NCBI GenBank assembly: GCA_964035015.1
Contig: OZ036010.1
Span: 2,734,104-2,798,103 of the forward strand
DNA from: Corallium rubrum
Taxonomy: Eukaryota; Cnidaria; Anthozoa; Scleralcyonacea; Coralliidae
Reading direction: 5' to 3'
Length of the DNA: 64,000 nt
Part shown: piece after piece, positions 919-45,350 of the stretch
Layout: each line of letters begins with the position of its first letter
Position numbering within the stretch: position 1 is the stretch's first letter
Notes under the pieces: model-generated
The model's database searches: none
What the model was told of the DNA's origin: nothing
The model's input: only the letters and a program-made list of their open reading frames with translations
Translations under genes and position numbers: made by a program

Positions 919-1300
919 GTGGGCTCAAATATTGCGAATCATGCTTGGTCTTACGACCATAAAATTGATTTCAACAACAGCAAGATAATTGACAAAGCAA
1001 ACTACCGCCACAGAGCTACACTGGAATCTTGGCACACCGCGCTTACAACTAATGCTGACAATAATTCTAAACATCTACCCGAGCAATACCATTTTTTTAT
1101 TGAAGAAATAGAACAATCGTTAGAGTTCACAGAGTATCATACAGGTGGAACTGTCACATCCAGTTATTTGTCATTGTATTGTTAATCGTAGCGTAGGTGT
1201 ATAGTCTGTAATTGTAAACTGTAGTCGTCTGCAATCATTGTATTTTGTAACTACCTGTTGAAGGCTGCAGTCTGGCAGCCAAAAGCTCGTAATAAATAAA
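919..1300 (+). pseudogene. Penelope-like element relic (GIY-YIG endonuclease end)
   Basis: An 88-residue open frame (919-1185) contains SNIANHAWSYDHKIDF, followed by an Asn/Leu-Glu pattern like the end of the GIY-YIG endonuclease of Penelope-like retroelements (an invariant His, an aromatic-Asp segment, a catalytic-region Glu). No reverse transcriptase part is present, so it is a 3' fragment. Behind the stop a stem-loop (1263-1280) sits between CTGTTGA and AAAA, a decayed hammerhead-like arrangement, and an AATAAATAAATA tail follows near 1290. It lies on the + strand in the TAF1A intron before the 1384 exon. The family call rests on motif memory; a protein search would decide. Confidence 0.55.
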
Positions 1301-1383
1301 TATTTTCAACCAGAGAACGTCTCCAAAATCATCAATACATGTACTGTTGGTTAATTTTTGTTTCAATATTTTTGTTTTTCTAG

Positions 1384-1541
1384 GACAACTTCAAGGCATG
1401 TCATATATTACACGAACACATGTTTATTTCTTAACTAAGGTCCTCAAAGAAAGCTTGCTTAGTCATAGATATAATCAAGGCTTGGCATCATTGATAGGCT
1501 TGAGTAGGAGATGTGAAAAAATCCCAGAATTATTTTATCTG
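1384..1541 (+). CDS. TAF1A: TAF1A exon (first visible)
   Basis: The acceptor is tttttctag/GA and the donor CTG/gtgagt. The exon opens with the last two bases of a split codon, so at least one more coding exon lies upstream, outside the window or unrecognised. It encodes the helical segment FLTKVLKESLLSHRYNQGLA, which corresponds to the N-terminal helical repeats of the family. Confidence 0.82.
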
Positions 1542-4500: not shown

Positions 4501-7500
4501 TTAGATATCTGTATTATTTTCTGAAGTCAAACTCTGGCACTGACGCTGATTTAATAAAAGTTTTAGAAGATTTAATAAAATTGGACCCAACCAGTGAATG
4601 TTTGACTGACTTGATTGACCTGAAAATTAAGACTGGTATGTTTGGAATATTATATTAGGGCTACGTCTACACATATCCGGATTTTTTTGAAAACGCAACT
4701 TTTTCGTTATGGATTGGCCTTCCGTCCACACGTAAACGATGAAGTAATAATATTATAAGTAATATTGGGCATTTCACTCGATTACATCGCATGTTCTAGG
4801 GATTTATGGTGAAGGAAAATTCGAGTGTAGAATATATACATTTTAAGACCAAACCGGGACCAGTTGCGAAAAATGCAACTACACAGGCCTTCCGGCAGGA
4901 ATTGAACCCACGACCTTGCGATTCTAGTGCAATGCTCTGACCACTGAGCCACGGAGATTTCACTCGATTACATGGCATGTTCTAGGGATTTATGGTGAAG
5001 GAAAATTCGAGTGTAGAATATCCGAGACGTTTGTTGAAAACCGAGGCGAAGCCGAGGTATTTGAACAAACTTCGAGGTGTTTGGATTTCCTGATGAAACA
5101 CTCCTCCGAGTGTATGATATAGCATCTCAAACAAATCAGTATTTTATGAGAAAATCGAGATGAAGTTTGCTTAATTTATGTAATTTCTTCCTCCGATATC
5201 TAAACCACAGACGCGGTATTGATTTCCTTTGTGTTTTCCTCATGAATTATTAAAGTGTCACTGTGATGAAAAATCGTCAGTCTTTTTTTGATCTTATTAT
5301 AAAGTACATTTACAATAAGGATGAACGGCGTTTGTGGTTTGTAAATAACTCATCTCGTTCAAGAGATATTCACGTTTTTGAAATATGCAAATTATATGGT
5401 TGATGACGTCATTTTCTCCAAACGAGAGAAATGAAAATCGTAAAATTAGGAATAGCTCTGACTAGAAATAAACCATAGAAAGTGCTCAAATTTTGCATGC
5501 CTATAGTATTAAATAAAATACGTTTTACTGTGGAACTTTAGTTGTTTTCGTGGAAACTACTGGTTCCTGGCCTCCTCCAATGATAAAATTAAATTTGCTT
5601 ATTTATCAGCAATCAAGTAACGTTTACTCCAGCGAATAAAAGTGAAGATTAGGGCATATGTATGCATTGTAATTCAAACGTTTAAATCTTTCTATTTTTA
5701 AACAATGAGACAAAAATGATAATTCCCTTTTTAAGGTTTAGAGTACCTGAGAGCATGCGCTTAACATGGCAATCACAAAAGTTCCACAGAGATGTGTATG
5801 TTATTGGATACTATAAGCATACAAAGTTTAAGCGCGTTCTATTGTTTATTTCCAGAGATATTCCTTATTTTACGATTTTCATTTCGCTCGTTTGGAGAAA
5901 ATGACGTCATCAGCTATAAATTTGCATATTTCCAAAACGTGAATATCTCTTGAACGAGATGAGATATTGACAAACCACAAACGCCGTTCACCCTCATTTT
6001 AAATGTACTTTATGATAAGATCAAAAAAAGGACTGACGATTTTTTCATCATAGTGACACTTTAATGAGTTTGAGATGTTGTTATCAAAAATGGAACTTTC
6101 CAAAGGCGCTCTCCAAAGTGGAACTTTTTGAAAACGCCGCGGCAGCCGTTTTCCTGTTCTTGTGTGGACGCGGATTTTTTTGAAAACGGATAAGAAAGTT
6201 GCGCTTTCAAAACAATCCAGTTACGCGGTGTGGACGTAGTCTAAGGACTTTCAGTAAGGCCTGCGCTAAACGTCGCACAGACGAATTTAATTGTTTGAAT
6301 TTTATTCGACGAAACTGCGACGTATAACTCGATTAAATTCGACACACGAATTAAATTCGTCTCGGCAGTTAAATTCGTCTGAGTCAGACGGATAATGCGA
6401 CGGTAATGCATGTTCGAGTTACACAACGAATTATCAATTAAAGGAATCATTTTCAGGGTCCACGCGTCCAAGTAAAAATAGTTAAATTCGACGTTTAACT
6501 AACTCGACGTTGAATTTGCGTCGCATTATTCGAATCAAATTCGTCTATTGTGCGACGTTTAGCGCAGGCCTCAATCTCGTTCCCGAGCCCACGTTCCCCA
6601 CCCGGGAAACGAGAGACTCTGGGATAATCCGTTTCACATCGATATTTCATTGGCTGATGAACACAGTGAACTCTATATAACAATCGAAATGTGGTATGTA
6701 GGTTAATACTGCCGAAACAGAGAACGTAAGTGGTCTAACGTTTCGAGCGAAGGCCCTTCGTCAGAGAGAAGCGTGGAACTCTATAGAACTCTATATAACT
6801 CTTCTTCCGGATAACAAAAATCCTGTGATGGCGTGAACGGATTATCCCAGAGTCTCTCGTTTCCCGCCCGCTGGGTAAGGGGAACGTGGGCTCTGGGAAC
6901 GAGATTGCGCAGGCCTAATCAACCTCGTACCCAGGCTTTTCGCTCCCGCCCTGGCGAAATCGTCGAGCGAAAACCCTGGCATGGGCTGGTCACGTGCCTC
7001 CCAGAATCTGGGTGTACTAATGGGGGTTGGGTCGTTTACAAGTTCGTGTTTTTTCTGACGCCATGTTTTTATCTTGTCTGGGTTCCGGTATCAAAAAGAG
7101 TATTTATACAAATGTTAATTTAAAGCCACAGCAAGTCACTTGCTTAGTGGCTCTTTTTAATTCAGTGAGTTACATCGCAAATCTTGAGACACAAGCGGCA
7201 GCACGAACTTGGAATTCCCTCACTGTAGAACTTTTTCGGTGTATTAAACTGTTTGGACATATCCATGTGCAGTTGCATTGTTAAATGATACGAAATGATA
7301 TGTGATCTCGTGTCGTGGCAATTTAATAAACCGAAACTATACGTTTGATGATAACACCACAAGACAATACGTACTTACCATCCCCTCCCTAATAACCGTA
7401 TTTTAAAACCTCCCAGATTCTGGGAGGCACGTGACCAGCCCATGCCAGGATTTTCGCTCGATGCGAGGGCGGGGGTGAAAAGCCTGGGTACGAGGTTGAG

Positions 7501-12336: not shown

Positions 12337-13890
12337 TCAGATCTGCAGAAAAGCTTTCTGTAGATCTCCGGTAATCGCAACTGGGTGGATTCGTGCTCGC
12401 ACAAGTACAGTCCATAGCAAGTTCTGTAGAGGCGGTCCAGGGTCTAGGCAGTCGTTCAGGGACGGCTGGTCTGCTCGCTCTCTCGCCGAGGCATCGTAAA
12501 CCACTCTCAGCTTCGAACTTTCTGCTTCAGGTCTGACTACAGCTTTATGTGGAAGGTAGAATTCTTTACCAACGACAACTGTGGGGGCTGCCTCAACAAC
12601 TCCCCGCTCGATCTGTTCTTGAATAACCTCGTCGTATGCTGCATAACTGTCGTTTTTCTCCAACTTCTTCACAACCAGCTGAAGTCTTCTGACGCTTGCG
12701 GCCTTGTTGGTGGGTAGCTCTGGGTGGTTGCCCTTCCATGGGAGCCCGGTTTCATACCACCCCTCTGGACTACGTGTTAGTTGCTCCTTGAACTCTTGGT
12801 ACACTTCATGTTGATCCCCTGCAGGTGAATCAGCCAAGCCAAGCACATCCAGACTGCAAAGCTGTTCGTAGTCGACACTCTTGGAACTGGTAAGCAATAG
12901 TGGACCAGTGTCTACTTCTCGGCCGGGCGACATGATCGTCCACCCAAGTAGGGTCTTCTCCGCCACAGGTTGACCAGGCGATCCGATTCTTGGTGCGGTC
13001 TTCGTTTTAATTGCAGCGTATTCACTGGCACCAAGCACAACATGGACCGGCAGATGTTGTTTGACTTCAACGTCATGGATATGTACTCCATTGAGATGTG
13101 AGTGGTTTTTCAACAAAGTCTTGTAATTTGGATTCTCCAAGTGCATCAACTGTGGTTTGTCCACCTTGGTTACATTGACATCCATGGCAAAGTCACCGTC
13201 TATTGACTTGATCTTAACATTATAGATTTCCACTTTCGTTGTAGTTGAACCGAGCATCATCTCTATGCGTTTGGTTTTGATTTCTGTAGGCTGTTTGTGA
13301 ATGGCGTCGATTAGCTTTGCTGAAGCATAGGAACTTCCGGCCCCTGTATCGAGTAATGCTCTTGTCTTGATACCATCTATCTCTAGCAACACAACTGGGT
13401 ATATCACTTCGCTGTCGTCGGCTTGATGCGCTGATAACAACTCTGATTTGGCTTCAGAATCGCAGATCGACGTATGGTGTCTTTTTCCACAGTTCCGACA
13501 AGTGGTGGTACTTCGACATTCAGCTGCACGATGTGACTCGCCAGCGCAATTATAGCATAGTTTCTTTTGCGCTAGTATCTTCCTTCGGTCTGCTGATGTA
13601 CTGACAATTGAACAAGTTGTCGACCTATGCTCCTTCGAATCGCAGTATACACACATGCGTGGTTTCGTTTGGTCTTTCTTCTGCTGCGTACTGAAGGCTT
13701 TACCCGATTTCTCTCGTCGTTTCTCATCTTGGTTATTTTCGACTGGGTTTCTTTCGGTCCAATCCCGTAGAGCTTTGCATAGTTTAACAAACGTCCACTC
13801 TTTCCATTTTGGGTCGGTTCGTACCAGATCTCCGCGTATATTCGGAAGTTTGTTAAGAGTCATCCTGACGTATCCGTTTAGATAGATAGA
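12337..13890 (-). pseudogene. BEL-1 gag end, protease and RT beginning
   Basis: It begins where the LINE breaks gag (near 13890), with GYVRMTLNKLPNIRGDLVR, the conserved gag segment of BEL/Pao elements. Cys/His knuckles follow (CVYCDSKEHRSTTC, CYNCAGESHRAAEC, CRNCGKRHHTSIC), then an aspartic protease (ALLDTGAGSSYAS) and the RT N-terminal part (KLRVVYDASAR, DPGPPLQNLLWTV). A TGA at 12334-12336 interrupts the RT just after FLQI. The residues ahead of GYVR (MCFEINVSIYLN) are LINE tail. Confidence 0.88.
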
Positions 13891-14234
13891 TACGTTTATT
13901 TCAAAACACACTGCAGCTTAAGACAGCTGAATTGCGTGTTACAAATGGTAAATTACATTAAGAACTTAAATTACTATAACTACTATAAATTACTTACAAG
14001 GAGTTGATGGATAAAACTGGTAAAAATTTACAATGTTTAAAAATCAGATACACATGCAGGAATAAAAGCTTGTTTGAATCTATTAGTTTTACATTTAGGA
14101 ATAATAAAATCTCTTTTCCTCCTAAGAAAATAGTTTGAATTATTAATATTTGGGAGGAGATTAAATAATTTATGTTCTGGGTTATCTGGAGAGGTATTCT
14201 CGGCGATCGTGAAGGCTTGTTAAATTTGTAAGCT

Positions 14235-16886
14235 CTAATCTGTTAGGATACGACTTCCCTGGCAGAATAATCGATAAGACGCGTTTTTGAATTCGTTCGA
14301 TGTTATCACTGAGGTATTGTGGCAATGAATGATGAAACACCTCACAACTGTACGAATACATGTGCAGTAGAATGTGACAATTGAAGCGATGGGAATTTTA
14401 GCGCGTTTCATTTGAACGATAAAGTATATGCGTTTGTTTGCTTTCTTAATAATGGTCTTGACGTGTTCGTTCCAACGGAAGTCATTGCTAATAGTAAGAC
14501 CTAAGATCCTTGCATGGCTAACAAGTTCGACTTGACCTGACTCTAAGTTTATGGGGAGAAAAGTGTCCTTTGTCCTTTTAAATTGGAAAATGAGTTCCTT
14601 ACATTTTGTAGCATTTAATTGAAATTTGTTTGCATTTGACCAAGCTTGGACATTGGATGCTGCTGATTGTATTAAACTTGGATTATTATTTTGGATTACT
14701 TCAGATACAGTAGTATCGTCGACGTAAATCCAATTGTCAAAATGAGGGATTAAAAGATCGTTGAGCATTAAGATAAAAAGCCATGGACCAAGTTTAGTTC
14801 CCTGCGGAACTCCTGCTGGGACTGGTGCCCAGTCAGAAAAACAGTTATTTGCCAGTTTAACACGTTGGAATCTGCATCGTAGAAAGTCAATTACCCAGTT
14901 AGTCACTTGTAGTGGCATATTAAGTTGGCGGATTTTATTCACTAAAAGGTGATGATCGATGAGATCAAACGCTTTTCGAAAATCTAGTAACATAACTCGA
15001 ACAGCAGCTCCCGTGCCGTCTGTAGCCTCAATCCACTTGTGCAACATACTAATTAAAGCTAAGGTAGCGGACGATTTTGGAATAACCCCAAATTGGGCAG
15101 GATTTATTATGCTGAGTATCTTGGGAGCGACGAACTTCTCGACTACAAAGTCTTCTGCAATCTTGGATATGACTGGTGTCAATGATATCGGTCTTAGATG
15201 CTTGTTTACATCTCGGACTATTTTTTCCTTTGGCACTGGAGTAACATTGGCCCATTTCCAATCCAGGGGCAGTTTCTGTTCTTCATAGGATGAGTTAAGG
15301 ATATTGGTGATGGGCTCTGCAAGAAGTTCTGCATATTCTTTGTATAACCAGTTTGGGATACCATCAGGTCCTGGAGATTTCCCAGAATTTAAAATCTTGA
15401 GTTTATTATAAGTTGATTGAATTGAAACTTGAAGAGGAGAGACGGGAAAGTTGGAAGAATTTAGGCACGGGATCGTTTGGGAAGTCACTGCTTCTTCTTC
15501 TTCTAATGGTGGGTAATTACTCATTGGATTTAGGAAACTCTTGTTTATCAAATTGGCGATTTCGGTTGGAGTTAAGTTGTCGATGGACTCAATCTGCAAT
15601 TGGGAGATGAGGTCAGACTGTTTTACAGGGGAAGTACCGGAAATGCGCTTAACCTCACGCCACCAAGCTTTGGGATTTGACTCCTTTAAGCCCTGGACTT
15701 TGCTGGCATAGAATTTTCGTCGAAGATTTTTCCTCTCGCGGTTTACTTGGTTCCGGTATCGATTAAAGCTTAGATTGTCGCCTCTAGAGAAGGCCTTTTG
15801 ACGTTGTTTGATTAGATGTTTAAAATGCTTGGTAATCCAGGGGGGGTCATTGTGGTGGAGTTTGACCCTCTTAATGGGCATAATGACGTCAAGGCCTAAA
15901 TTAATGAGGGATTCTAGTAGGTTAGACTTTTCCTCGCAAGATGGAGTGTTTTGAAATATGCTCCAGTCGATATCACGCAAGAACCTACCAAGTTCCTGCT
16001 TACGAGATGGACGTGTGTCTCTTTTGTACACAAATTTGCAGCTATGACTTCTGGATTTCCTTTGTTTCGGTTTGACTGATACGGAGATATGATCAGACAG
16101 GCCAAAAGGTGGGCGAGGTTCAATAGACTTTAGGTCGTAGTAACGGTGAAGGTTTGTAAGGACAAGATCGAGGGTGTTATTACCACGCGTGTGTAGGTGA
16201 ACCAGCTGTTTCAATTGAAATTGACGCTCAAGGACTTTGACGTTCAATTTATTAAAATCTCCAGCGATAATTATGCCGCAACCGGGAAATTGGCCCTCTA
16301 TTTCAATAAGGGAATTGGCTAGGTGCTCGGTCATAATGTTGTTGTTAGCACCAGGGGGGTGATAGACAGTGCCCGTTACTATGCACGGAATTCCTCTCGG
16401 AAGGCGTCTTGGTCTAGTGTGAACCCAAAGTACTTCCAGACCAGTTTCGTCAAATTGGTCTAGCACTTTGATTTTGGTGGATTCTTTAGAGTATAAACAA
16501 ACACCTCCGTGTAAACCAGTCGAGCGATCCCGTCGCGTGACTTTGTAACCCGGAAGTTGAATTTGATTGTCGCCAATAGACTTTTTTAGCCACGTTTCAG
16601 TGAAAAATAAGAAATCAAATGTCTCTTCCATTGTAAATGCTCGTATTTCATCGATTTTTGGAACGAGTGACATTACATTTGAAAGTAGGAGGCTTGGTGT
16701 GAATTCGTTTGGTGTAGTTGTAGGGGTAACGCATTGGATAGTCGATGTATCTAGAATCTCAGCACAAGAAATAGGCGTTAAATTACTCAGGTTACGTTCT
16801 CGCCCTACTATATTATTATTAAGTATGTGGAAAAAGTTCTCCGGTGGATGTGCAATTCGGACAGGAATATTATTTGTCTTGATCAA
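14235..16886 (-). pseudogene. LINE ORF2: APE endonuclease and reverse transcriptase
   Basis: It begins about 12 nt behind the ORF1 stop in another frame; its frame is also open a little into ORF1, so linked translation is possible. The endonuclease has FFTETWLKKSIGDNQI, GVCLYSKES, IIAGDFNKLNV and GLSDHISVSVKP. The RT has SGKSPGPDGIPNWLYKEY, LRPISLTPVISK, MLLDFRKAFDLIDHHLL, GVPQGTKLGPWLFILMLNDL and YVDDTT. Near 14370 the frame shifts: the end as read (RTVVRCFIIHCHNTS) is off-frame, and the usual C-terminal region resumes in other frames down to about 14045. The copy is therefore inactive. Confidence 0.87.
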
Positions 16887-16897
16887 CTTGAGAGTGT

Positions 16898-18031
16898 TTA
16901 AGTTCTCGTTACTTGGCGGACAAATTCGAGATATCTCTGCCAGTTGTTGGTCCGGTTGGTCTGATTGTACTTCGGTTTTCCTCGAAAAAAACCCTGACTT
17001 TGTGTTGTCTGGTTTGTCCTATCGACCGGTCTTTCGAAACTCTGGTCTGTTCCATTGAGCAAACCACTACACCGTCGTCGCTGATGATAGGGTATCCTGA
17101 TATTGATGGGTTGACCTCGGGGGAACCCCCGATTGGGGATCTTCCGGCTTTCACCATTTGACGGGCGTCTAATTTGTTTTTGGGGAGTATACATTACTCT
17201 TTTGTTAATACGTTGGCCCCGCGGCGACTCTTTTCTCCTCAGACTGTCAACTTGGTCAAATTGAGGATAGATAGGCGTATCAGTTTGTGAAATTTTGTTG
17301 ATCGTTGAATAAATTATCTCGTGTTGTTTTCTCCTTCCGTCTCGTATTTGTTCAGCGAATGATTTGCTGCTGTGAATATTTGTCTCCTGTGTCGAAGAAC
17401 CCAAAAATGAAGACACAGGGCAAGTGGGCTCCAAAGCTTCGGCCGTTTGTGTGCCAACATCTCGCTTTTCTTCAGCCGACTTCTTCAAACCGCCTTCTAA
17501 TTTAATTAATGACTCACGGTATCTATTTAACGTTACTCGTAAATTTTCGATGTCGAGTTTGACTTCGGCCATTTCCACAGATAAGCGCCTACACTCTGTA
17601 CATTCACTCTCTGTTCCATGCTGTTCATGCGAAGGCTGGTTTGAGGAAAATGATGGAAGCCCTTCAGAGACATCGCCGTCGTCGTCTAACACGATGCTTT
17701 CAGTTGTGTCCAAATTCAAGATCTGTCCTTTTAAGATGTTTCCCATTTGACCTTGAAATAGCAACGATCTCTTGTTGGTATACCAAGTGATAGTGATTTG
17801 GTCATTGCGAAACGCTTTGGAACTTCCCCCAGGCGAACTCCATTTGCCATCATCACCGAATATATCAAACATAAGTTGCTTTAATTCTTCTAAATCTCCC
17901 AACCATTTGACTTTACCGTCAATACTGTTTTCTAAATACTTGCTATATTTCAATAAAACTTTTGAAACACGAGAAATTTCCTGGACATTTTCGGAGGTCA
18001 AGGAGCTCGAAGAGACACGTCTGCTCGCCAT
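16898..18031 (-). CDS. LINE ORF1 protein with Trp/SPGG domain
   Basis: A 377-residue frame starting at an ATG (MASRRVSSSS). Residues ~40-105 contain WLGDLEELKQ, DDGKWSSPGGSSKAF and ITITWYTNK. A segment near residues 135-185 is Cys/Glu-rich and helical (CTECRRLSVEMAEVKLDIEN), a probable coiled coil. The C-terminal third is basic and Arg/Gln-rich, fit for nucleic-acid binding. No esterase or zinc-knuckle signature is seen. The N-terminal domain matches the gene of the TIR element at 40361-40870. ORF1 proteins usually package the LINE RNA; that role is inferred from position. Confidence 0.75.
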   Translation of the reverse strand: MASRRVSSSSLTSENVQEISRVSKVLLKYSKYLENSIDGKVKWLGDLEELKQLMFDIFGDDGKWSSPGGSSKAFRNDQITITWYTNKRSLLFQGQMGNILKGQILNLDTTESIVLDDDGDVSEGLPSFSSNQPSHEQHGTESECTECRRLSVEMAEVKLDIENLRVTLNRYRESLIKLEGGLKKSAEEKRDVGTQTAEALEPTCPVSSFLGSSTQETNIHSSKSFAEQIRDGRRKQHEIIYSTINKISQTDTPIYPQFDQVDSLRRKESPRGQRINKRVMYTPQKQIRRPSNGESRKIPNRGFPRGQPINIRIPYHQRRRCSGLLNGTDQSFERPVDRTNQTTQSQGFFRGKPKYNQTNRTNNWQRYLEFVRQVTRT

Positions 18032-18072
18032 GACACTGTATGTAATTTGTATGACACTGTATGTAATTTATT

Positions 18073-33147: not shown

Positions 33148-34445
33148 CAGAACATTTCTCACCGACCGAAAACAAGGATATGGCTATATTCGACTTCCGA
33201 CAAGTAAAGCAACAAAGTGGAGAATCCATCGACGAATTCTACCGCCGACTAAAAGAAAAAGCCTGTCTTTGTGGATTTCACGATGAAGATAACGAAATTA
33301 AAACGCAAATCATACACAAAACGTCAGACCCTCGTTTACGTCGCAAAGCCCTTCGTGAACAGCTAGATTTGAAAAACATCCTAACCTACGGAAAAACCTT
33401 GGAAAAATCCGACCTGAGTGCTCGAAAGCTAGAACAAGTAGAGAAACACGAAACGGCAACCAGCGAAACGACAAATCATATCGAATTCAACAAGCGTCAA
33501 TACGGCCAAAGCGGAAATCAACATAATCAGCGACCTCGACAAAACAAAGGCGCTCGTCATCCCCAAAATAACACCAAACCGCAACAACCAAGTAAGCAAT
33601 TATGTCGAAATTGCGGAGGAACCTATTCCCATCAAAATGGCAAGTACAACTGTCCTGCACATGGAAAAGAATGCCATAACTGTCGTAAAATTGGACATTT
33701 TGCGAAATATTGTTTATCGAAGACAATGTCAAAGCCACCCAGACAAAAGACAGATGTCAACAAGAAGTACGCCGACAACATCACTTCAGAAGCTCCTCCA
33801 AGCAGTGACACCGATGACGAATTTACGTTTAGCTTGTACGATAAACAGAAACAACCGCAAGTTAAAGTCTCCATCGCCAAGATTCCAATTCGTGTTATTA
33901 TCGATTCAGGTTCGACAGTCAACATAATAAACGAAAACACATTCAACGTCATCAAACGAAGCAACCGCAACGTGAATCTAGAAAAATCAAACGCTAAAAT
34001 TTATCCATACGGCGCAGAGAAACCACTGCAAGTCTTAGGACAATTCACCGCCACTGTAGTCCACGACTCAACGTCAACAACAGCGACATTCCAAGTCACC
34101 AAAAGTTCAACAAAGTGCCTACTCAGCTGTAATACATCTACTGTTTTAGGACTGTTAAAAACATTTGTTAACAACGTCAATGTTCAACATCCTAATCCAG
34201 ACGTACAGCGAATTATCAACAAGCATAAATCATTGTTTCAAGGCATCGGAAAGCTCAAAGGAACAGAAGTTAAGCTAGACATCGACGAGAACATCACACC
34301 AGTAGTTCAACGCGCTAGAAGAATACCTCATAGCCTGAAAATTAAGGTAAATGCAAAGCTTAAAGAAATGCTCGAACAGGATATTATTGAGAAAGCTGAA
34401 GGTGCTACGCCTTGGCTAACACCGCTCATTGCTATTCCAAAAAAT
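33105..34445 (+). pseudogene. Gypsy gag end, zinc knuckles, protease, RT beginning
   Basis: From about 33105 the frame carries gag (FRQVKQQSGESIDEFYRRLK), a Cys-rich region with the knuckle CHNCRKIGHFAKYC, a protease (IDSGSTVNIINENTF), and the start of RT (VQRARRIPHSLKIK, WLTPLIAIPKN). Past 34445 the TIR element begins, and YAMRTCDYRC at the end is not Gypsy. Confidence 0.87.
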
Positions 34446-34463
34446 AGGTACGCAATGCGTACA

Positions 34464-35366
34464 TGTGACTACCGCTGTTAAGTACAGAATGAGATATAGA
34501 CTTGAAATGCATGAAAATGTGTGAGAAGCACAGACACACACAAAAAAATGGTGGATAAATCCTAGCTAGAGAACCACTCTAGTGGTGCTTTGAACAACCC
34601 AATTTTTAACTTTTATCCACTGAACAGCACTGTCAGATACATAACTATTCAGTGGATAAAATTTTATATTAGGTTGTTCAAAGCATGATTAGTGCTGTTC
34701 TTTAGCTAGAACTTATCAACTAGATAAGCTTATCATGATATATACATGTATTGTACATGCAGTATAAACATGAGTCACTCACCAGTGAGCACAACACACA
34801 ATTCAACCAAAATTAAACTTCTAAAAAATAAAGAATTTTGGTATATATCAGTTTCTTCGATAAAAGAAGGTTGAAGGCCCAACTTCTAGCAAACTTTATA
34901 AGCTGAATATTTCTAGTACTGCTATGAGTACCCTGTTTCCGATGAAGTACTTTATATAGATTTTGTATGTAGTATATAAGATAAACAACGTCACAGTTTT
35001 GAAACTATATCTTACCTTGTATAAACTGATCAATGCGGACAGAAACCGTTCCAAGAAGAAAAGATTTGCAAAGTAATAATTAACACTTTCAAAAATCAAA
35101 ACTGTCATCGAGAGAGCAACCAAAATGCAAAGACGAGATTTAGTTTACTTTACTCCCCGCGAGGCCACGAAAACAACTCGACTGCTTCCCAAATACTTGG
35201 CGATCAATGGCGATCTTCTTGACTATATAGCGATCAATAGCGATCGCGTCGAATATCTGGCGATGGCTGCACGAGTATGACGTAAGTGCGGTCCAAGACA
35301 ATCGCGCAAGCAAGCAAGCAACACGCCGACATTATGGCTACCGCTGACAGGTCAGCGGTAGTCACA
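34464..35366. mobile_element. TIR element inserted in the Gypsy RT
   Basis: The ends TGTGACTACCGCTG (34464-34477) and CAGCGGTAGTCACA (35353-35366) are perfect 14-bp inverted repeats. It separates two RT halves, so it is the youngest layer here. A short stretch on each side (34446-34463, 35367-35381) also seems foreign to RT, so the true ends or duplication are uncertain. No transposase; an inner inverted repeat ('cagtggataaa') is present at 34610-34670. Confidence 0.65.
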
Positions 35367-35381
35367 AAACGTCCAGTGATG

Positions 35382-35602
35382 TTCGACTAGTTTTGGATAT
35401 GAGAGTACCTAATCAAGCTCTTAAAAGACGACGTGTACAGATGCCAACCGTCGACGAGATTTTACAGAAAATGCAAGGAGCAACCGTCTTCACTGAAGTT
35501 GACCTATCGCAGGGATATTTACAGATATCCTTGGCACCAGAGTCCCGATATATTACAGCTTTTCCAACTCCTGAAGATGGACCACATGGTTCAAAAGGTT
35601 AA
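35382..35602 (+). pseudogene. Gypsy RT middle part
   Basis: Reads DMRVPNQALKRRRVQMPTVD and FTEVDLSQGYLQISLAPES, RT motif A region with the first catalytic Asp. It ends in a frameshift and stop near 35600, in the segment that normally reads into the MG-P-S-E motif. Confidence 0.85.
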
Positions 35603-35604
35603 TC

Positions 35605-37197
35605 ATGGGAGCCTGTCCCTCGGGGGAATACTTTCATGAAGAAATCCATAACATTATCAGAAATATACCAAACTGTGCCAATATTTCTGATAACATTTGG
35701 CTATGGTCCGACAACATGACAACACACCTGAAAGATTTGGATCACCTTTTGACAACCCTTGAGAAGAGTGGAATCACCCTAAGGCAACAAAAGTGCTCAT
35801 TTGCTGTCCCAAGAATTAATGTGTTTGGACACATTGTATCCAGCAATGGTATTCAACCAGATGAAGCAAAGATCAGTACAATTACCACGGCTCCACGACC
35901 AAAGTGTGCAGCAGAAGTTCGATCGTTTCTCGGACTAACAAATTACTGTTCTCGCTATATTGACAATTATAGCAGTATAACCTACCCCCTACGCCAGTTG
36001 ACAAAAGCAAATGCAAAGTTTCATTGGACGGATCAGCATCAAGCAGCCTTTGACAAGTTGAAGACATCACTCAGCAACTCTCCTGTACTAGCACATTTCA
36101 ATCTATCGTCTCCTACACGACTAGTCACCGACGCCTCACCTTGGGCTGTTGGAGCAATCCTTCTTCAGCAACAACCTGACATGTCATATCGTCCAGTTGC
36201 CTATGGTAGTAGATCGTTAACTGTGACAGAGATGAAATATGCCCAGATTGAGCGAGAAGCACTAGCAATCGTGTATGGGTGTGAACATTTTCACACATAT
36301 CTCTATGGGAAAACATTTGAATTAGAGACAGACCACCGACCCCTTGAACACCTATTCCAACCTAAAGTTCGTCCAGCAGGAAAACCACCACCAGCCAGAA
36401 TTGAACGTTGGATTCTACGGCTTCAAGAGTATGATTTTACAGTTATTTATCGACCTGGTGCAAAGAATCTAGCAGATCCCTTATCCAGACTACCATTACC
36501 AACAACAGCACGCAGCAGTATGGAATCCTGTGCTGACCGATATATTTGCAACCTGGTACAACAGATGACACCGTGTGCAATGGAAACCGAAGAAATCAGA
36601 CAAGCATCTCTGGCAGACCAAGAAATCAAGCAAGCAAACCATGCACTAGCAACCAACCAACTGCATTCACTTCCAAAAGCTTTTCAAAGTATATCAGATG
36701 AGTTATCTACAACAAACGACATCTTACTACGTGGAAACCGAATTGTACTTCCAAAGAGCCTCCAAACAAAAGCAGTACTACTAGCCCACGAGGACCACGC
36801 TGGGATAACACGAACCAAACAACGTCTGCGTTCGAAATTATGGTGGCCAAAAATGGATGCATTTGTGGAAGAGCACATCAACAAATGTCACGCCTGCCAA
36901 GTAACAGGAAATCCATCACATCCTGAACCAGTCCAGCCCACAGAACTACCTAACGAAAGATGGTCGTCATTAGCTATTGATGTATGTGGACCGTTCCCCA
37001 CTGGTGAATATGTAGTCACGCTTATCGATTACTATTCTCGATGGCCAGAAGCTAAAATTATGAAATCTATTACATCAAGCAACATCCTCGCATGGCTTGA
37101 TGAAGTTTTCGCAACCCATGGATACCCAAAGCAGATCAAATCTGACAACGCTTCCTATTTTAAATCAAACGAGTTTTATACAACACTCAAATCCTGA
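35605..37197 (+). pseudogene. Gypsy RT end, RNase H, integrase
   Basis: Contains MGACPSGEYFHEEI, then ISDNI where Gypsy RTs have a two-Asp box (the second catalytic Asp is replaced by Asn), the RNase H motifs LVTDASPWAVGAILLQQ, EREALAIVYGCEHF, ETDHRPLEHLF and GAKNLADPLSRL, the integrase finger (HEDHAGITRTKQRL ... CHACQ) and catalytic region (SSLAIDVCGPFP, IKSDNASYFKS). A TGA at 37195-37197 ends it before the integrase Glu. Confidence 0.9.
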
Positions 37198-37916
37198 GGT
37201 GTTACTGTAAAGTACGTAACAGAGTACTGGCCTCAAGCAAACGGACTTGTAGAACGTTTCAACAAGGTACTATTGAAACATGTACAAACATCTTTGGTGA
37301 AGGAAAAGATTGGAGAAAAACACTCCCAACTCTACTTAGAAACTACCGCACCACTCCACACCGAACAACTGGAGAAACACCATCACATCTCCTGATGCAT
37401 AGAGAATTGAGAACCAAGATACCATCACAAGTAACTGATATTCCACTTTTTAATGATTTAGACACTCGACGAGCTGATGAACAATCAAAACAAAAGGGAA
37501 AGGAATATGCGGATACACGACGACATGCCAAGCCAAAGGACATTCAGCCAGGAGATTATGTCTTAGTTCAGCAAAAACACCAAAACAAGTTTTCTACAAC
37601 TTTTCATAAAGACCCAATAAAAGTCATCAAGGTAAATGGATCCCAAATCGTAGTTAAAGATAATGATGGACAGACTCATCGCAGAAACTCAGCACATGTA
37701 AAGAAAGTTCCACATGAAGGAATCCTGATCTCCATTGATGAAGAGATTGACAATGACACAGTCACCCAAAACCAAGAAATTGACCTAGCACCAGAACCAC
37801 CAAACCAACCCATTCATCCACCTGAAGCAATAGAAGAAATCCCTCCACCAGTTCCACAAAGAAGATCAACCCGCACTCACAAAGCACCAGAATATTACCA
37901 GTCAGGATACACTTGA
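37198..37916 (+). pseudogene. Gypsy integrase C-terminal part
   Basis: Directly behind the TGA the same frame goes on with EYWPQANGLVERFNKVLLKH (catalytic Glu). Near 37300 it shifts, and from 37395 a clean 173-residue frame gives the C-terminal region (KPKDIQPGDYVLVQQ, a GPY/F-like start, then a Pro/Glu-rich tail ending at 37916). Confidence 0.82.
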
Positions 37917-37994: not shown

Positions 37995-38186
37995 TGTAGT
38001 GTATTAATATTAATCACGTGATCTAGGCTAAGTGGAGAACAGTAACCGCATGGTCTGGACAGTTGAGTTAGGACTCGAGTACTTGATCGAATAGTATCGG
38101 AGACTAAACAAGTAATACATTAAGATTGTAAACAAGTTTATATTGTTCTTTATTAAACATATTCAAGTAAAGATCAGAATATTACA
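37995..38186 (+). repeat. Gypsy 3' LTR
   Basis: 192 bp, two differences from the 5' LTR. A short purine run just before it would prime plus-strand synthesis. Confidence 0.92.
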
Positions 38187-38606
38187 ACAGCTCGACTGGA
38201 TGCGCATGCAAGTGTACAGAACGATGTACACCTTGTGCATTTCGTTTGATTTCGAATAAATATCCTTCACGTACAGCGGACCAGCGTGATCAACTCCTAT
38301 GTTGATGAAGGCGAAGTCATCTGACAAACGGAATTTCGGTAGTGGTGGAGAAGCCGGCACTCCGTAGGATTTTCCTTCTAATCTCTTGCAAATATTGCGG
38401 TTCGACAGTGTTCGTTTGACCACTTGACGACCCTTTACCACCCAAAACTTCGACCGCAGCTGCGCCAAAGTTTCTTGAACACCATTGTGCATAACTTCTT
38501 CATGACCTCCTTGAATAACTAGGTTCGTGTAATGGTGTTCGGCTGGAAGAAGAACAGGAAACTTAGACTCGTAGGTAAAGGTGAGTTTTCCAAACGACCA
38601 CGACAT
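38187..38606 (-). pseudogene. BEL-2 integrase N-terminal part
   Basis: Contains the His/Cys finger (HHYTNLVIQGGHEEVMHNG ... NRNICKRLEG) and the first catalytic Asp region (FINIGVDHAGPLYV). The open frame runs on to 38163, but those last residues are Gypsy LTR. The Cys expected as the last finger ligand is hard to place, so that motif may be damaged. Confidence 0.8.
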
Positions 38607-39892
38607 CGCAGGATACCGTTGTCATCCTCGAACAGACCAAGCGATGACTTTACTTGCTGGAACTTCTCGTTTCTCTTTATGGATTCTTGTAATTCCTTAA
38701 TCCATCTTTGTTCTGCGTCAGTGATTTCCTCAGCAGTTAGTTCACCGGTTCTGTTCTCTGATCTTGTCACTCGACATTTCAAATTATGCCCAAAACGTAG
38801 CACATACGCTGTTACTCTCTTCAAAGATAACGCGCTGCTATATTTCGTAGCTTGCATCACTTCCTGTAATCCCAACTTTCTCGTGGTCTTTATCACTGCG
38901 ACGGTAACCTTTACTTCATGATCAGCTAGTTCATGAGACAAATTTGCAGAGGGCTGGGTTGGCCATTCTTCGGATCTGCGTAGAAACTTTGGACCGTGCC
39001 ACCATTTCTCATCACTAGCTAGCTCGGTAGCTACAGCTCCACGCGACGCGACATCTGCAGGATTGTCCTTCGTGGGACAGTATCGCCAAGACTCAGCAGA
39101 TGTTAGACTTCGAATCTCCGTCACTCTATTTTGCACAAATTGCTTGTATTCTCTGGTCAAACTTCTGATCCAACTCAAAACGACAGTCGAATCCGACCAG
39201 TAAACCATGCGATCAATAACTAAGGAGCCATGAAGAGCTCTTCTTAAACTCTGCGACAGACGCGCTGACACCAGGCAGCCCAATAGCTCGAGACGTGGGA
39301 TGGTCTGTTTTGCCATAGGAGAAACTCTGGTTTTGGATGATACTAGATTGCAGCAAACACTAGACTCATGTTCGCATCGTAGATAAATGCACGAACCGTA
39401 TGCAGACTCGGAAGCATCTCCAAACACATGTAACTCTGTAAATTTCGGTTCTTCACTACTCTGGCAACAGCACCGCTTTAGCGAAATGGTACCAACTTCT
39501 CGTAAATTCTGGACAATCGCCTTCCACTTGGAACAAATACTCTCGTCTACAGGATCATCCCACTTGAATTGTTTCTGACACAGCTCTTGGAATATCAACT
39601 TGAAGGTCAAGACAATAGGAGAAATCAGACCAACGGGGTCGTGAAAACGGGATGCAACGCTGACAATGACTCGTTTCGTAATAATGTCAGTCTCTGCAGC
39701 GCCTAAAATCTTAGAGAATTCAAACTCATCACTTCGGTGGTTCCATCTCTGTCCAAGAATCTTTGGAGTAGACTCGCTGTTCTGGGTGAAAACTGAATGG
39801 GCGTATCCTTGATCTTCTTCCGTTACACTTGCTTGAGAGGTTCTCGGTTGGATCTTCTGGGAATTTCCATCGTCTTCGAGTGTCTCCACCAA
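38519..39892 (-). pseudogene. BEL-2 RT end and RNase H
   Basis: A 457-residue frame with RFHDPVGLISPIVLTFKLIF (BEL RT thumb region), RNase H motifs HVFGDASESAYGSCIYL, LELLGCLVSARL, YWSDSTVVLSWIR and NPADVASRG, and the linker to integrase (GILRCRGRLENSPLP). It shifts frame near 38560 against the integrase piece. Confidence 0.85.
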
Positions 39893-40289
39893 TCTCTTGG
39901 AATTGATTTTTTACTTACGCATGTTATAATTAACCTCCATCAGCTAACCTTGATTTAATTTTCTTACACAGTTCCACTGTAGAGGACACAGTGCTTGCTC
40001 CTGAAGCATAATCATCAACGTAGAGAGACTTCAACACTTCTTCCACAAATTGTGGGTCAGATGAGGCGTACTGACTTACATGGTAGCGGATGCATGGTAG
40101 CATTGAGAATAAAGGGACTTGATGTCACTCCAAAAACCACTCTTGCAAATCTCATTGGCTTGATTGTGGGACAGCTACTAAAGGGATCGTCCACCCACAG
40201 GAATCGCAGAAAGTCTCGGTGTTCTGGAGCAATGGATATGTTAAGGAACGCTTTCTCACTATCTGCTGTAACAGCCACCTTATTCATTC
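39893..40289 (-). pseudogene. BEL-2 RT fragments with YVDD box
   Basis: Right below the TIR element, [18 protein letters not shown] and [19 protein letters not shown] continue the RT (40057-40289). The active site LYVDDYASGA is encoded at about 40006-40025 in another frame. At least two frame breaks and a stop lie between these parts. Confidence 0.8.
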
Positions 40290-40360
40290 GGAAACTACGG
40301 TGGCACACAAGTGCCAACGCAAACAATTATGATGGGAATGCAAATAAGAACAAAACTGTA

Positions 40361-40870
40361 TCAATGTAGCGACGATGCAAATCCTGCTTCATTTTGTTTG
40401 ATTCTGGTTTCAGCAATCGCTATATCTAATTTAAGACCTTCGATATCCGTTACTAGCTCACTAGATGAGCAAGGGCTTGAATGCTTCGCTTCACTCGGGT
40501 TAAATTCGCTATTATAAAGGTTGTAGCTTTCACCAATATATTTCAGTAAAATATGTGCCACACGATTCGCATTTACACCGTTTATTGCTATATATTTTTT
40601 GTTCTTCCACCAAGATATTTCGACATATTCACTTGTGAACAGTTTCTTTTCTCCGCCGGGGGAAGTCCATTCACCTATAAGATTTAACTCGTCCTTTACG
40701 AAATTCTTCAGGGATTCGTAGTCGCCACTCCATGCTATCTTTAGGTTTAATAGAGATAAAGACTTTGAGTTCTCTGGCTGATTTTGATCCTGTTTGGAAT
40801 CAGGTATCACGGTGCTAGTAACGGCTTCAAGATTATCAGCTGAGGGAATATAAGCGACCTCCGCCATCAT
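40361..40870 (-). CDS. TIR-element protein with Trp/SPGG domain
   Basis: From the ATG at 40870 (MMAEVAYIPSADNLEAV) it gives ~169 residues; the TAG stop... read as TGA in frame, lies within the left TIR. Residues ~45-110 carry WSGDYESLKNFVKDELN, LIGEWTSPGGEKKLF and VEISWWKNKKYIAINGV. This aligns, in order and spacing, with the N-terminal domain of the LINE ORF1 at 16898-18031. The last ~30 residues are helical (TDIEGLKLDIAIAETRIKQN), as in the ORF1. It could be a first exon of a spliced gene whose rest is lost. Function unknown; nucleic-acid binding is a guess from the ORF1 link. Confidence 0.6.
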   Translation of the reverse strand: MMAEVAYIPSADNLEAVTSTVIPDSKQDQNQPENSKSLSLLNLKIAWSGDYESLKNFVKDELNLIGEWTSPGGEKKLFTSEYVEISWWKNKKYIAINGVNANRVAHILLKYIGESYNLYNSEFNPSEAKHSSPCSSSELVTDIEGLKLDIAIAETRIKQNEAGFASSLH

Positions 40871-41720
40871 TGTTTTAGAACTATTGAATACACAAAGAAC
40901 GCCTGTAAATGAGACTACTGCGACGGATTCGTTGGACAACGAAAGTAAATCTGAATCGGCGAATCCGATACCGCTGCATGCATCTACAGCTATAGACCTT
41001 GAGGCTTGAGCTGACCGTTTTAACCAATATTTCGAAGACTATTACTTATACGGTTTAGTAAAAATTTTGCGTAAATAGAATCAATAAGATGATGTTGTAA
41101 CTGTGAATCGCGATATGAACACATGTGCATGAAATAAAGTTAAAAGTGTCACTGGAATATATGAGGCTGGCCAGACATCCAGGTAAATAATTATAATCCA
41201 CTAGATACATTTCGCCGAGACTTGTAGCTTTTTTAAAGCTTTTAGCACAGATTTATTTACACGACCAGCAAGAACATATTCATAATACCATTCTTCGTAA
41301 ACTTTGTAAAGCTCTGAGCTATAGTAAGCGAAATATTAGCTTTCTAGTAAACTAATTCGGGCAGTCGCTTCAGACACTAAAACACCTTTAGCTTTGAGCT
41401 TTTGTTTACAATCTTAAATTTCTCTTACGCTCTACACTAACTTTCACGCTTATTTGTTTGCATAGGCAGCAAAAACATAGTCAAAACAGTATTCTTCGTA
41501 AATTTCGTGTAGTTCTAGGCTAAACTTTTCAAAATATTAGCTTTCGACTAAACAAATTACACATAACAATACCAGCCCAGGACGGCTTTATTTAGCACGA
41601 CAATGGTGTAATTTCATTGGTCCATGTACACAAAAGGAACGGAATGTGTCGCTCTGTTGAGCAGACGTTAGTGGGGAGGGACTAGAGTCCGACCGAAAGA
41701 ACGGCTGCGAGGGAGACTAA

Positions 41721-41889
41721 AGCCCGTTCTCCACTAGGCGAATTTGTTCGCGCGAGTCGAATCGAAATACCCGTTCATGCAATGTAATTGGTTGGCGCTG
41801 CTAGTTTTCGCGCCAATTTTCTTACTTGCCAATCATATTGCGGGAGAATTCGCTTCGCGCGAACAAATTCGCCTAGTGGAGAACGGGCT
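41721..41889. mobile_element. PIF/Harbinger-type MITE nested in the 2.6-kb TIR element
   Basis: The 34-bp ends begin AGCCCGTTCTCCACTAGGCG and are perfect inverted copies. TAA flanks both sides (41718-41720, 41890-41892). 169 bp, no coding. Confidence 0.8.
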
Positions 41890-41989
41890 TAATAATTGCC
41901 CGACCTGATGCCGACTTTGGAAAGTACTTCATCTTGCAGGGATATTAGTGGATCATCTCTGCTGACTTGCATTTCCGCTGGCGCTTTTC

Positions 41990-42850
41990 TTACTTGCATC
42001 TAGTGTCCTTACTTGCATCTAGTGTCCTTACTTGCATCTAGTGTCCTTGCTTGCATCTCCGCTGTTCTTACTTGCATCTCTACTGTCCTTACTTGCATCT
42101 CTGCTGTCCTTACTTGCATCTCTACTGTCCTTACTTGCATCTCTACTGTTCTTACTTGCATCTCTACTGTCCTTACTTGCATCTCTACTGTCCTTACTTG
42201 CATCTCTACTGTCCTTACTTGCATCTCTACTGTTCTTACTTGCATCTCTACTGTCCTTACTTGCATCTCTACTGTCCTTACTTGCATCTCTACTGTCCTT
42301 ACTTGCATCTCTACTGTTCTTACTTGCATCTCTACTGTCCTTACTTGCATCTCTACTGTCCTTACTTGCATCTCTACTGTCCTTACTTGCATCTCTACTG
42401 TCCTTACTTGCATCTCTACTGTCCTTACTTGCATCTCCACTGTTCTTACTTGCATCTCTACTGTCCTTACTTGCATCTCTACTGTTCTTACTTGCATCTC
42501 TACTGTCCTTACTTGCATCTCTACTGTCCTTACTTGCATCTCTACTGTCCTTACTTGCATCTCTACTGTTCTTACTTGCATCTCTACTGTTCTTACTTGC
42601 ATCTCTACTGTCCTTACTTGCATCTCTACTGTCCTTACTTGCATCTCTACTGTCCTTACTTGCATCTCTACTGTCCTTACTTGCATCTCTACTGTCCTTA
42701 CTTGCATCTCTACTGTCCTTACTTGCATCTCTACTGTCCTTACTTGCATCTCCACTGTTCTTACTTGCATCTCTACTGTCCTTACTTGCATCTCTACTGT
42801 TCTTACTTGCATCTCTACTGTTCTTACTTGCATCTCCACCGTTTTTATTT
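41990..42850. repeat. 21-bp minisatellite, ~40 units
   Basis: The unit is TTACTTGCATCTCTACTGTC plus one base, with mostly T/C and A/C single-base variants. As 21 is a multiple of three and the unit has no stop, five frames stay open for 280-310 codons (EMQVRTV or LLASLLS repeats); these are not genes. The unit resembles the 'ttatttgcatcgtcgctaca' part of the adjoining TIR, from which it may have grown. Confidence 0.95.
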
Positions 42851-42939
42851 GCATCGTCGCTACATTGATACAGTTTTGTTCTTATTTGCATTCCCATTAT
42901 AATTGTTTACGTTGGCACTTGTGTGCCACCGTAGGAAAC

Positions 42940-43558
42940 GCACCATGATGTCGAAGATTAGTGGTGAAAGTGGAGGACCTGAATGCAAGCAGTCATTCAG
43001 ACTGGGACCATTCTTCTTAGCTGACGCGTCATATACAACTCGTAACTTGGTCGTATCTTTGTCCATTCTAACAACCTCACGATGGGGAAGATAATGAAAA
43101 GTTCCTGCTGGACACACATCTTCTACTTGGACAGTTTCAATGATTCCTTCTTCGTGCTGTTCCTTGATCATTCTATCATATTCATGAAGGATTTCTGGTT
43201 TTGATTGAAGACGCGAGAGGAGTGTTCCCAATCTCTTTACACAAATGGAATGATTATCAGGAAGAGTGGGATGATTCTCCTTGAAAGGAAGCTTGGTTAC
43301 ATATCGCTTGCCATCGAAACTCACTTCTTGGATGAACTTTTCCTCAACTGACATCTCGTTCTTCTGGATGCCAAGGCTTTCAAGGTCCCAGAACCTGCTC
43401 AGTTGGTCGTCAATGCTGTCAGGGAGTTCCATAATGTTAGTGGTTGATGTGTTAACTTGAAGAGTGTGAGTTGAACAAATGTTCACAGCACACTCGGGAT
43501 TTCCTTGGCAGTTGGAGACTAATGGACCTGACAATACCCATCCTAGCTTGGTACGCAA
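42940..43558 (-). pseudogene. BEL-2 protease end and RT beginning
   Basis: Contains KLGWVLSGPLVSNCQG (the protease-RT linker typical of BEL), YVTKLPFKENHPTLPDN, LRVVYDASAKKNGPSLNDCL and SGPPLSPLIFDIMVRF, where the TIR element interrupts. The residues read beyond 42940 belong to that element. Confidence 0.85.
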
Positions 43559-43586
43559 TGCAACAGGACCTGGAGATCTTCCTTTC

Positions 43587-44357
43587 CTAATTTCCCCAGT
43601 GAAGAAGTTCCAGTAGTATACTATCAGCCCCGATTAACACATCAATTTCAACTTCACTTCTTGCTTCATGGTTGTCGGTCAACTGTAGACCTCGTAGATG
43701 AGGATATTCTTGAACCGCTACTTCCACAGCTTGGTTACTGAGAGGATTACAGATGGTTGGTACATTGTAGGTATTAACATAAAGTTCCATTCCATCATCA
43801 CTTATTAGGGCCAACTGCACCAAATCACAGGATCTTAGTCTTGGGGATTTATCACCAAAAGCCTTGATTAGCAGATTGTCATTTCCAACTACTGGCAATT
43901 TGAGGGCGTGCTGTAGTCGGTGAGTGACGTATGAGCGTTGGCTACAGGAATCGAATATCACTCTGGCATTCACCTTGTTTCTAGGATCATTCGGTGGCCC
44001 CACCAAGCTTTGTGCTGTTTGTAGTAATACCGAGGTCTGGTTGTCAACACACACAGTAGATGCAGCTACCACTTCTTGTTTTGGTTGTTCGGGTGTAGGT
44101 TTCCTCTCTCTCTTCGGCACATTACCACACAATGCTGTGTGATGAAAGCCTCCACACTTGAAACACCTCAACCTTGAAGGGCAGTCTCTCATTATATGTC
44201 CAGACTTCAGACAAACGAAACACTTCCCTTTCCTACGAAGAATTCCTCTTCTGGCAGCTACATCAGTGACCACCTCACATTTCACTGAAGGGCGCTCTTT
44301 CTCACAAAAGACACAATATGGTTTTGACTTCGGATAATCATCTTTGCCAGCAAACAA
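43587..44357 (-). pseudogene. BEL-2 gag zinc knuckles and protease
   Basis: Cys/His knuckles CFVCLKSGHIMRDC and CFKCGGFHHTALC, then a retroviral-type protease region ARVIFDSCSQRSYVT. The usual D-T/S-G triad reads D-S-C here, as in several BEL lineages. A stop at 43584-43586 splits it from the following piece. Confidence 0.82.
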
Positions 44358-45350
44358 AGAGGCAGCAGACAGGGGTTGATCGGACTGCTGGGGTTGGCAT
44401 TTAACAAGCTACATCTCTCTCTTGCTTCCAATTCACTCTTAAGTTGGGATAGAACTTCATTAACGTTCCAATTGCTTTTATCAATCTTTCTACTCAGTAA
44501 AAGTGTAAGCTCTTCGGGAATTCTACTCATGATAATTGGAACTAAAAGGTTACCATATGATCCAGACGAAACTCCAAGGTTCTGCAAACTTCTCAGGTGT
44601 GTCTCGATAGTATCGTATAATTTACGTACCTTCTTTATCTCATCAACGTTGGTCACTCTTTCCAAACTCAGCAAGGCGTCCATATGTCTTGACACAATAA
44701 CTTGATTATCTGCGAATCTTTCCTTCAACAAACTTACAGCAGTGTCATAGTTCTCGGCTGTCAAGGTAAATCCAGCAATCGTAGCCGCAGCTGGGCCATC
44801 TAAGAGACTTTTCAGATAGTTAAACTTATCTACCTTCGAAACATCTTCGTTGTTGTGTACAGCAGCCTCGAAGCTATCCCAGAACGACTGCCATGACATC
44901 GAATCTCCCGAGAACTTTCTCAACGTTAACTTCGGTAATCTTGCTTTCTGCTTCGTTGGACTTGGCGTCGTTTGCGACGTTCCACTTGACTGACTATCAC
45001 TCGCACTGGCTTCAGCATTCTTCGACGACGTACTAACTTTATCCAAAACTCTGTTAATCTTAATCAAGGCTCGACTCAAAATCTCGCTAAATTCACTTGC
45101 CCCAAATATCTCGTCGTTGATTTTCGTCTCATTAGTCGCCTCTACTATAACATCATCCAGTTTATTGATAAGTTCTTTCTTGCTGAGTAACGTTGCCTTG
45201 TATCCCTTCTAGCTTGTCAAACTCACTCGGCGAACCGTGGAAATCGCTTAGTAATTCTTCGACATGTTGCATTGTTTTCTCCACAAACAGTCAGTGCCCT
45301 GCGCGAAGTTTCACTTTCTTAGCAGTGTTTGCTTTGGACATCTCTACTCA
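44282..45350 (-). pseudogene. BEL-2 gag
   Basis: The clear part (44282-45079) has LPKLTLRKFSGDSMSWQSFW, the DUF1759-like gag core, NYLKSLLDGPAAATIAGF and a long helical region. The likely start is an ATG near 45350 (MSKANTAKKVKLRAG), but a stop follows at once and frames change several times before 45079. It shifts frame again into the zinc-knuckle segment near 44350. Confidence 0.8.

Follow-up and report, generated by a model that had tools for sequence, protein, structure and literature searches.

How two different mobile elements come to share one protein domain, and what that domain does, is the question raised by a 64,000-nucleotide stretch of the Corallium rubrum genome (contig OZ036010.1, positions 2,734,104-2,798,103, assembly GCA_964035015.1), here called the window. 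Two minus-strand open reading frames (ORFs), one within a DNA element (40361-40939), the other the ORF1 of a long interspersed nuclear element (LINE; 16898-18031), both encode a segment marked by a Trp and an SPGG signature, the W/SPGG domain. The explanation that best fits our results, and which we consider well founded as a whole, is that this is a LINE ORF1 domain, captured along with a piece of an ORF1 by an IS3EU-type transposon, and that it resembles the N-terminal domain of RNase HIII and is a candidate nucleic-acid binder.

The likeness between the two proteins is confirmed. The motifs listed in an earlier note on this DNA, W-x-GD, a Leu-Lys helix, G-x-W-[ST]-SPGG, K-x-F, I-x-W and an Asn-Lys pair, are common to both, in order and without gaps, and BLASTP aligns the element protein with the LINE ORF1 at 53.1 bits (E 4e-13, 22 of 62 residues identical). 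Comparison of family profiles, built from 6 sequences for the element protein and 9 for the LINE ORF1, was significant (probability 99.3%, E 4.1e-20, 117 columns). The match spans the domain and the linker and continues into the next helix (DIEGLKLDI in the element, VEMAEVKLDI in the LINE), bearing out the helical segment that the note had placed there; the shared region is thus the N-terminal half of a single protein type, rather than an isolated domain found in two different ones. A domain profile built from both sequences finds only two significant places in the window (3.1e-33 and 9.1e-32), the next having an E of 1.1. AlphaFold2, run on shallow alignments of the same 6 and 9 sequences, predicts for both proteins the same beta-alpha-beta4-alpha core, with strands (E) and helices (H) in the same order: E66-69, H74-84, E90-95, E98-102, E107-111, E116-120 and H124-138 in the element protein, E41-43, H47-58, E63-68, E71-75, E80-84, E89-93 and H95-105 in the LINE ORF1. 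Only the core is confident, at a predicted local distance difference test (pLDDT) of about 75-93 over its blocks, most of the remainder of both models being of low confidence. The two domains and the LINE are located as follows.

13888..18072, minus strand: LINE, approximate extent, with a short TATC-type tail; by eye it seems to lie inside a second BEL/Pao element
14235..16886, minus strand: LINE ORF2, 883 aa, endonuclease and reverse transcriptase (Exo_endo_phos 2.7e-6, RVT_1 1.3e-22)
16898..18031, minus strand: LINE ORF1, 377 aa (ORF list, profile comparison, model)
17717..17914, minus strand: W/SPGG domain of the LINE ORF1, residues 40-105 (model and domain profile)
40526..40744, minus strand: W/SPGG domain, putatively RNase HIII N-domain-like, of the captured ORF, model residues 66-138 (model and domain profile)

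The genomic distribution of the domain tells which system it belongs to. A search of the whole assembly (474 Mb, 312 contigs) with the element protein gave 150 scored matches, some of them pieces of one copy, out of 352 first-look candidates, and 20 loci, most of them among the highest-ranked matches, were retrieved with roughly 10 kb of sequence apiece. Sixteen of these have a same-strand ORF2 match no more than 2.1 kb downstream of the domain, which identifies the latter as the N-terminal domain of a LINE ORF1. The nearest same-strand ORF2 is found at 4.6 kb in L021 and at 7.3 kb in L036 (by tblastn; phmmer gives a nearer, weak match), while L024 has an ORF2 match on the opposite strand only and L030 has none. 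All ORF2s compared to Pfam contain a reverse transcriptase, and all contain an endonuclease too, except L035, a single ORF fusing the W/SPGG domain to the reverse transcriptase, which was kept out of the ORF2 set serving as window control of the profile comparison. The shared segment is therefore, with near certainty, the N-terminal domain of the ORF1 protein (ORF1p) in a large LINE family with two ORFs and an endonuclease, present in the C. rubrum genome.

The LINE of the window is apparently complete, featuring ORF1, ORF2, a short 5' end and the tail, and its exact ends are not fixed, as several ways of joining the flanks give an open frame. Its ORF1 has a long predicted helix (residues 140-193, moderate model confidence) and ends in a short W-x-x-YL-x-x-V motif. 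It thus shares with the RNA recognition motif (RRM)-type ORF1ps, types I to III as described in PMC4120745, its position as the N-terminal part of a two-ORF LINE and the long predicted helix. It differs from them in that no RRM, CCHC, PHD or transposase_22 match was found by Pfam, either in the window ORF1 or in those of L026, L033, L037 and L039. By eye, the C-terminal half of the L038 and L039 ORF1s resembles a decayed SGNH region (VLVIGDSS), with no Pfam esterase match in L039. Among relatives found by protein search, P0010, P0011 and P0023 carry the same N-terminal domain, followed by CCCH zinc fingers at the C-terminus in P0010 (Pfam) and P0023 (by eye); P0010 and P0011 have a common N-terminus and different C-termini, which suggests module exchange.

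What kind of domain this is was not revealed by sequence searches, which produced no convincing match (lowest E-values 0.007 in Pfam, 0.0044 in NCBIfam and 0.27 in a profile search of PDB); scans of IMG/VR with the domain alignment returned 10 pattern matches, none of them confirmed, and a scan with the ends of the DNA element returned no relative. In structure searches, for both models and with two aligners, the first-listed solved match was the N-terminal domain of RNase HIII (DUF3378, PF11858). When PF11858 was in turn searched against the genome, no match passed the cut-off, and those found below it included divergent LINE ORF1s of the same plan, the best-scoring of which, L073, reaches 25.8 bits in hmmscan (E 1.2e-5) for a family cut-off of 27. 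Profile matches between the domain and the RNase HIII N-domain lie above all shuffles; the global alignment is weak (probability 1.2%), yet none of 400 shuffles reaches its score. In these comparisons the RNase HIII profile was made of 17 of 23 loci and two PDB chains, L064 having been dropped as incomplete and L066-L070 left out, and the profile of the divergent group of 4 of its 10 sequences, the remainder being identical or nearly so.

According to PMC4132731, RNase HIII binds the RNA/DNA hybrid across its minor groove with the open face of the sheet, and in the T. ammonificans enzyme Tyr43 stacks on a deoxyribose and Gly52 contacts a 2'-OH. Hand alignment puts the second residue of I-x-W-[YW] on Tyr43 and the glycine of the last strand on Gly52; the former position is aromatic in only 17 of 22 SPGG sequences, the latter is a glycine in 21 of 22. 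PMC3710099 reports that some RNase LS proteins are fused to a TBP-like domain resembling the one of RNase HIII, and takes this as support for binding of DNA-RNA duplexes. In contrast to RNase HIII, the LINE domain comes without the RNase catalytic domain, carries the W-x-SPGG signature and falls below the Pfam cut-off. On predicted structure and remote sequence similarity, the W/SPGG domain probably folds as beta-alpha-beta4-alpha and would be distantly related to the TBP-like N-domain found on bacterial RNase HIII; homology of the two is likely.

The same data have to be weighed against the view of the domain as a module for protein-protein contacts (longin, KA1 or PH-like) or for multimerisation, resembling RNase HIII only in a common arrangement of sheet and helices. 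Longin, roadblock, KA1 and AMPK domains are indeed listed by the structure searches as well, all Foldseek E-values are weak, RNase H3 ties with other rows by Z, and one of the 22 members has a match to the INTU longin domain. Against this stand the first rank of RNase H3 for both models and two aligners, the LINE ORF1s found in the genome with PF11858 and the profile matches that beat all shuffles, and we regard a protein-protein module as unlikely, though it is the most serious competitor of an RNase HIII-like domain.

The domain of the DNA element raises a different issue, its origin, for which the composition of the element is informative.

38163..45079, minus strand: BEL/Pao retrotransposon interrupted by the element (Peptidase_A17 in 38519-39892; extent judged by eye from the ORFs)
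40290..40295 and 42934-42939, unstranded: left and right copies of the target site duplication (TSD) GGAAAC (flank comparison)
40296..40382, plus strand: left terminal inverted repeat (TIR) of the IS3EU-type element (inverted repeat 40295-40382 / 42847-42934, 88 nt, 98%)
40361..40870, minus strand: captured ORF, covering the N-terminal ORF1 domain and the beginning of the helix after it; its six final codons and stop fall within the TIR
40383..40872, minus strand: LINE-derived piece of about 490 bp, 97% identical to L021 (C12:8692552-8693037)
40892..41715, unstranded: another abundant repeat, with inverted ends, present as a truncated copy adjoining the LINE piece (genome matches)
41720..41890, unstranded: snap-back inverted repeat, arms 41720-41762 / 41848-41890
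41892..42855, unstranded: IS3EU-type end sequence with a 21-bp minisatellite (41989-42855); 91% identity between 41892-42729 and the end of L041
42847..42933, minus strand: right TIR of the IS3EU-type element (inverted repeat, genome matches)

Joining the BEL/Pao flanks with one copy of the TSD restores a single open frame. In the genome the TIR has 11 matches, four facing pairs and three single ends, the paired ends being 2.6 kb apart in the window and 7.7, 8.2 and 11.6 kb apart elsewhere. Six-bp TSDs are exact at three pairs (GGAAAC in the window, CGCACA at C13, CTTATC at C22) and agree in 5 of 6 bases at the fourth (CTTTTC/CTTTTT at C179); a 2-bp TA target site was considered and rejected, given the 6-bp duplication at the other copies. 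All four pairs end in TACGG or TATGG..CCGTA, hence in TAYGG..CCRTA. Both the 6-bp TSDs and the TA..TA (TAYGG..CCRTA) termini are those given for IS3EU transposons in PMC10045372 and PMC12730594, which also mention passenger genes in this superfamily (TET/JBP, and alpha-kinase in fungi). Further points in common are TIRs longer than 30 bp and a relative, the 7.7-kb L041, encoding a protein with an rva_4 integrase core (PF24764, 6.1e-21), a candidate IS3EU transposase. In L041 this protein (5733-6467, minus strand) is oriented opposite to a second one (1075-2217, plus strand), which has a weak zinc-ribbon match (E 0.003, under the cut-off). The end of this second protein looks to us like the start of a HECT domain, for which Pfam gave no match. 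Unlike IS3EU transposons as described, the copy in the window has no transposase ORF, and contains instead the LINE ORF1 piece and other repeats.

The direction of transfer follows from the LINE piece itself. Its match to L021, a LINE copy with a frameshifted ORF1, is bounded by the TIR edge and, at the opposite end, by a point two bases ahead of the start codon, while the ORF1 similarity in L021 runs on past the capture break; 97% identity together with a break at the TIR edge indicates that the DNA element took the piece from a LINE. The start of the element ORF most likely lies at 40870, as judged from its relative P0001, and the next best of 16 DNA matches to the piece in the genome, after L021, is only 79% identical. 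In a tree of the domain (24 rows, L021 not among them; stars on 5 of 21 inner branches) the captured domain groups with the LINE ORF1s P0003, L022, L023 and P0001 (support 96/94). The rest of the element is a mosaic as well, made up of the abundant-repeat fragment, the snap-back repeat and the IS3EU end sequence with its minisatellite. The abundant repeat has 63 listed matches (788 candidates at first look, 40 of them scored), and in the longest alignments the query begins at base 20; several further copies carry inverted ends separated by about 1 kb. The DNA element is thus, with high confidence, a non-autonomous transposon of the IS3EU type with a middle made up of foreign pieces, including approximately the first 490 bp of the ORF1 of a related LINE, and in which the domain is a passenger, cut off by the TIR.

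Of the two origins that the earlier note had offered, capture therefore stands and a host-derived module does not. That LINEs and the DNA element each received the domain independently from a host gene family could be argued from the two of 20 loci with no same-strand ORF2 match and from the differing C-termini of some protein-search relatives, such as P0010. But the domain lies just upstream of ORF2 in 16 of 20 copies, the nearest relatives of the captured piece are LINE ORF1s, the 97% identity stops at the TIR and the profile likeness runs on into the helix after the domain, all of which makes a host donor very improbable. A remote cellular origin of the domain, as an RNase HIII-like N-domain, is possible.

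Equally improbable is that the ORF1 piece serves the transposon's own mobility as an accessory protein. Its reading frame does stay open from the start codon up to the TIR, unlike that of the frameshifted L021, but the TIR cuts the protein short, the element as a whole is a mosaic of repeats, only the window copy among the 16 DNA matches lies inside a TIR pair, and the domain has no significant match in L041. No listed genome match to the element protein falls inside the 8.2- and 11.6-kb relatives, which were not read through. The suggestion of two unrelated transposition systems using one domain is accordingly not borne out.

Elsewhere in the window, the open frames at 33180-37916 are presumably those of a Gypsy-type retrotransposon (zinc knuckle, protease, reverse transcriptase and integrase, by eye). 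An ORF at 2817-3482, which we take to resemble TAF1A, suggests a host gene beside the repeat cluster.

The divergent ORF1s found with PF11858 connect the domain to another class of LINEs. A GDSL/SGNH esterase (PF13472, 1.1e-11 in L083) is present in this group, in L073 and L083 by Pfam and in L076 and L082 by eye, and it is only here that the hallmark of type IV ORF1ps was found. As in type IV proteins such as ZfL2-1, described in PMC3905857, a putative coiled coil is followed by the esterase and then by ORF2, but the divergent proteins have an additional RNase HIII-like domain in front; the window ORF1 differs from type IV in its W-x-x-YL-x-x-V end and in having no esterase match in Pfam. In L072-L081, most of the divergent ORF1 frames extend upstream into simple repeats (SVCL or LS runs), as if these LINEs lay in or beside TCTG-type microsatellites.

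For the function of the domain, the RNase HIII comparison suggests a model in which it would bind nucleic acid through the open face of its sheet, while the helix that follows would multimerise ORF1p as a coiled coil. Together, the two activities would allow ORF1p to hold the LINE RNA, or the RNA/DNA hybrid of target-primed reverse transcription. We give this model an even chance; a specific preference for the hybrid is more doubtful. Literature searches, covering titles and abstract openings, found no report of an RNase HIII-like or hybrid-binding domain in a LINE ORF1p. Esterase-containing ORF1ps in Repbase are described, in PMC3905857, as devoid of structural RNA-binding domains, their entry into ribonucleoprotein particles being left open and arginine-rich peptides proposed for it.

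As a case of a DNA transposon acquiring part of a retrotransposon gene, the capture is clean but ordinary. Of greater note is the domain of the LINEs, a candidate module for binding nucleic acid that is related to the N-domain of RNase HIII. How ORF1ps without RRMs hold RNA is an open question, to which a compact, RNase HIII-related N-terminal domain would give, for these LINEs, a direct and testable answer. Tentatively, a branch of animal LINEs, including esterase-type ones, might carry at the front of ORF1p a hybrid-gripping homologue of the RNase HIII N-domain, which would be the domain reported as missing in esterase-type ORF1ps; the candidate domain could thus be the binding part thought to be lacking in some LINE proteins.
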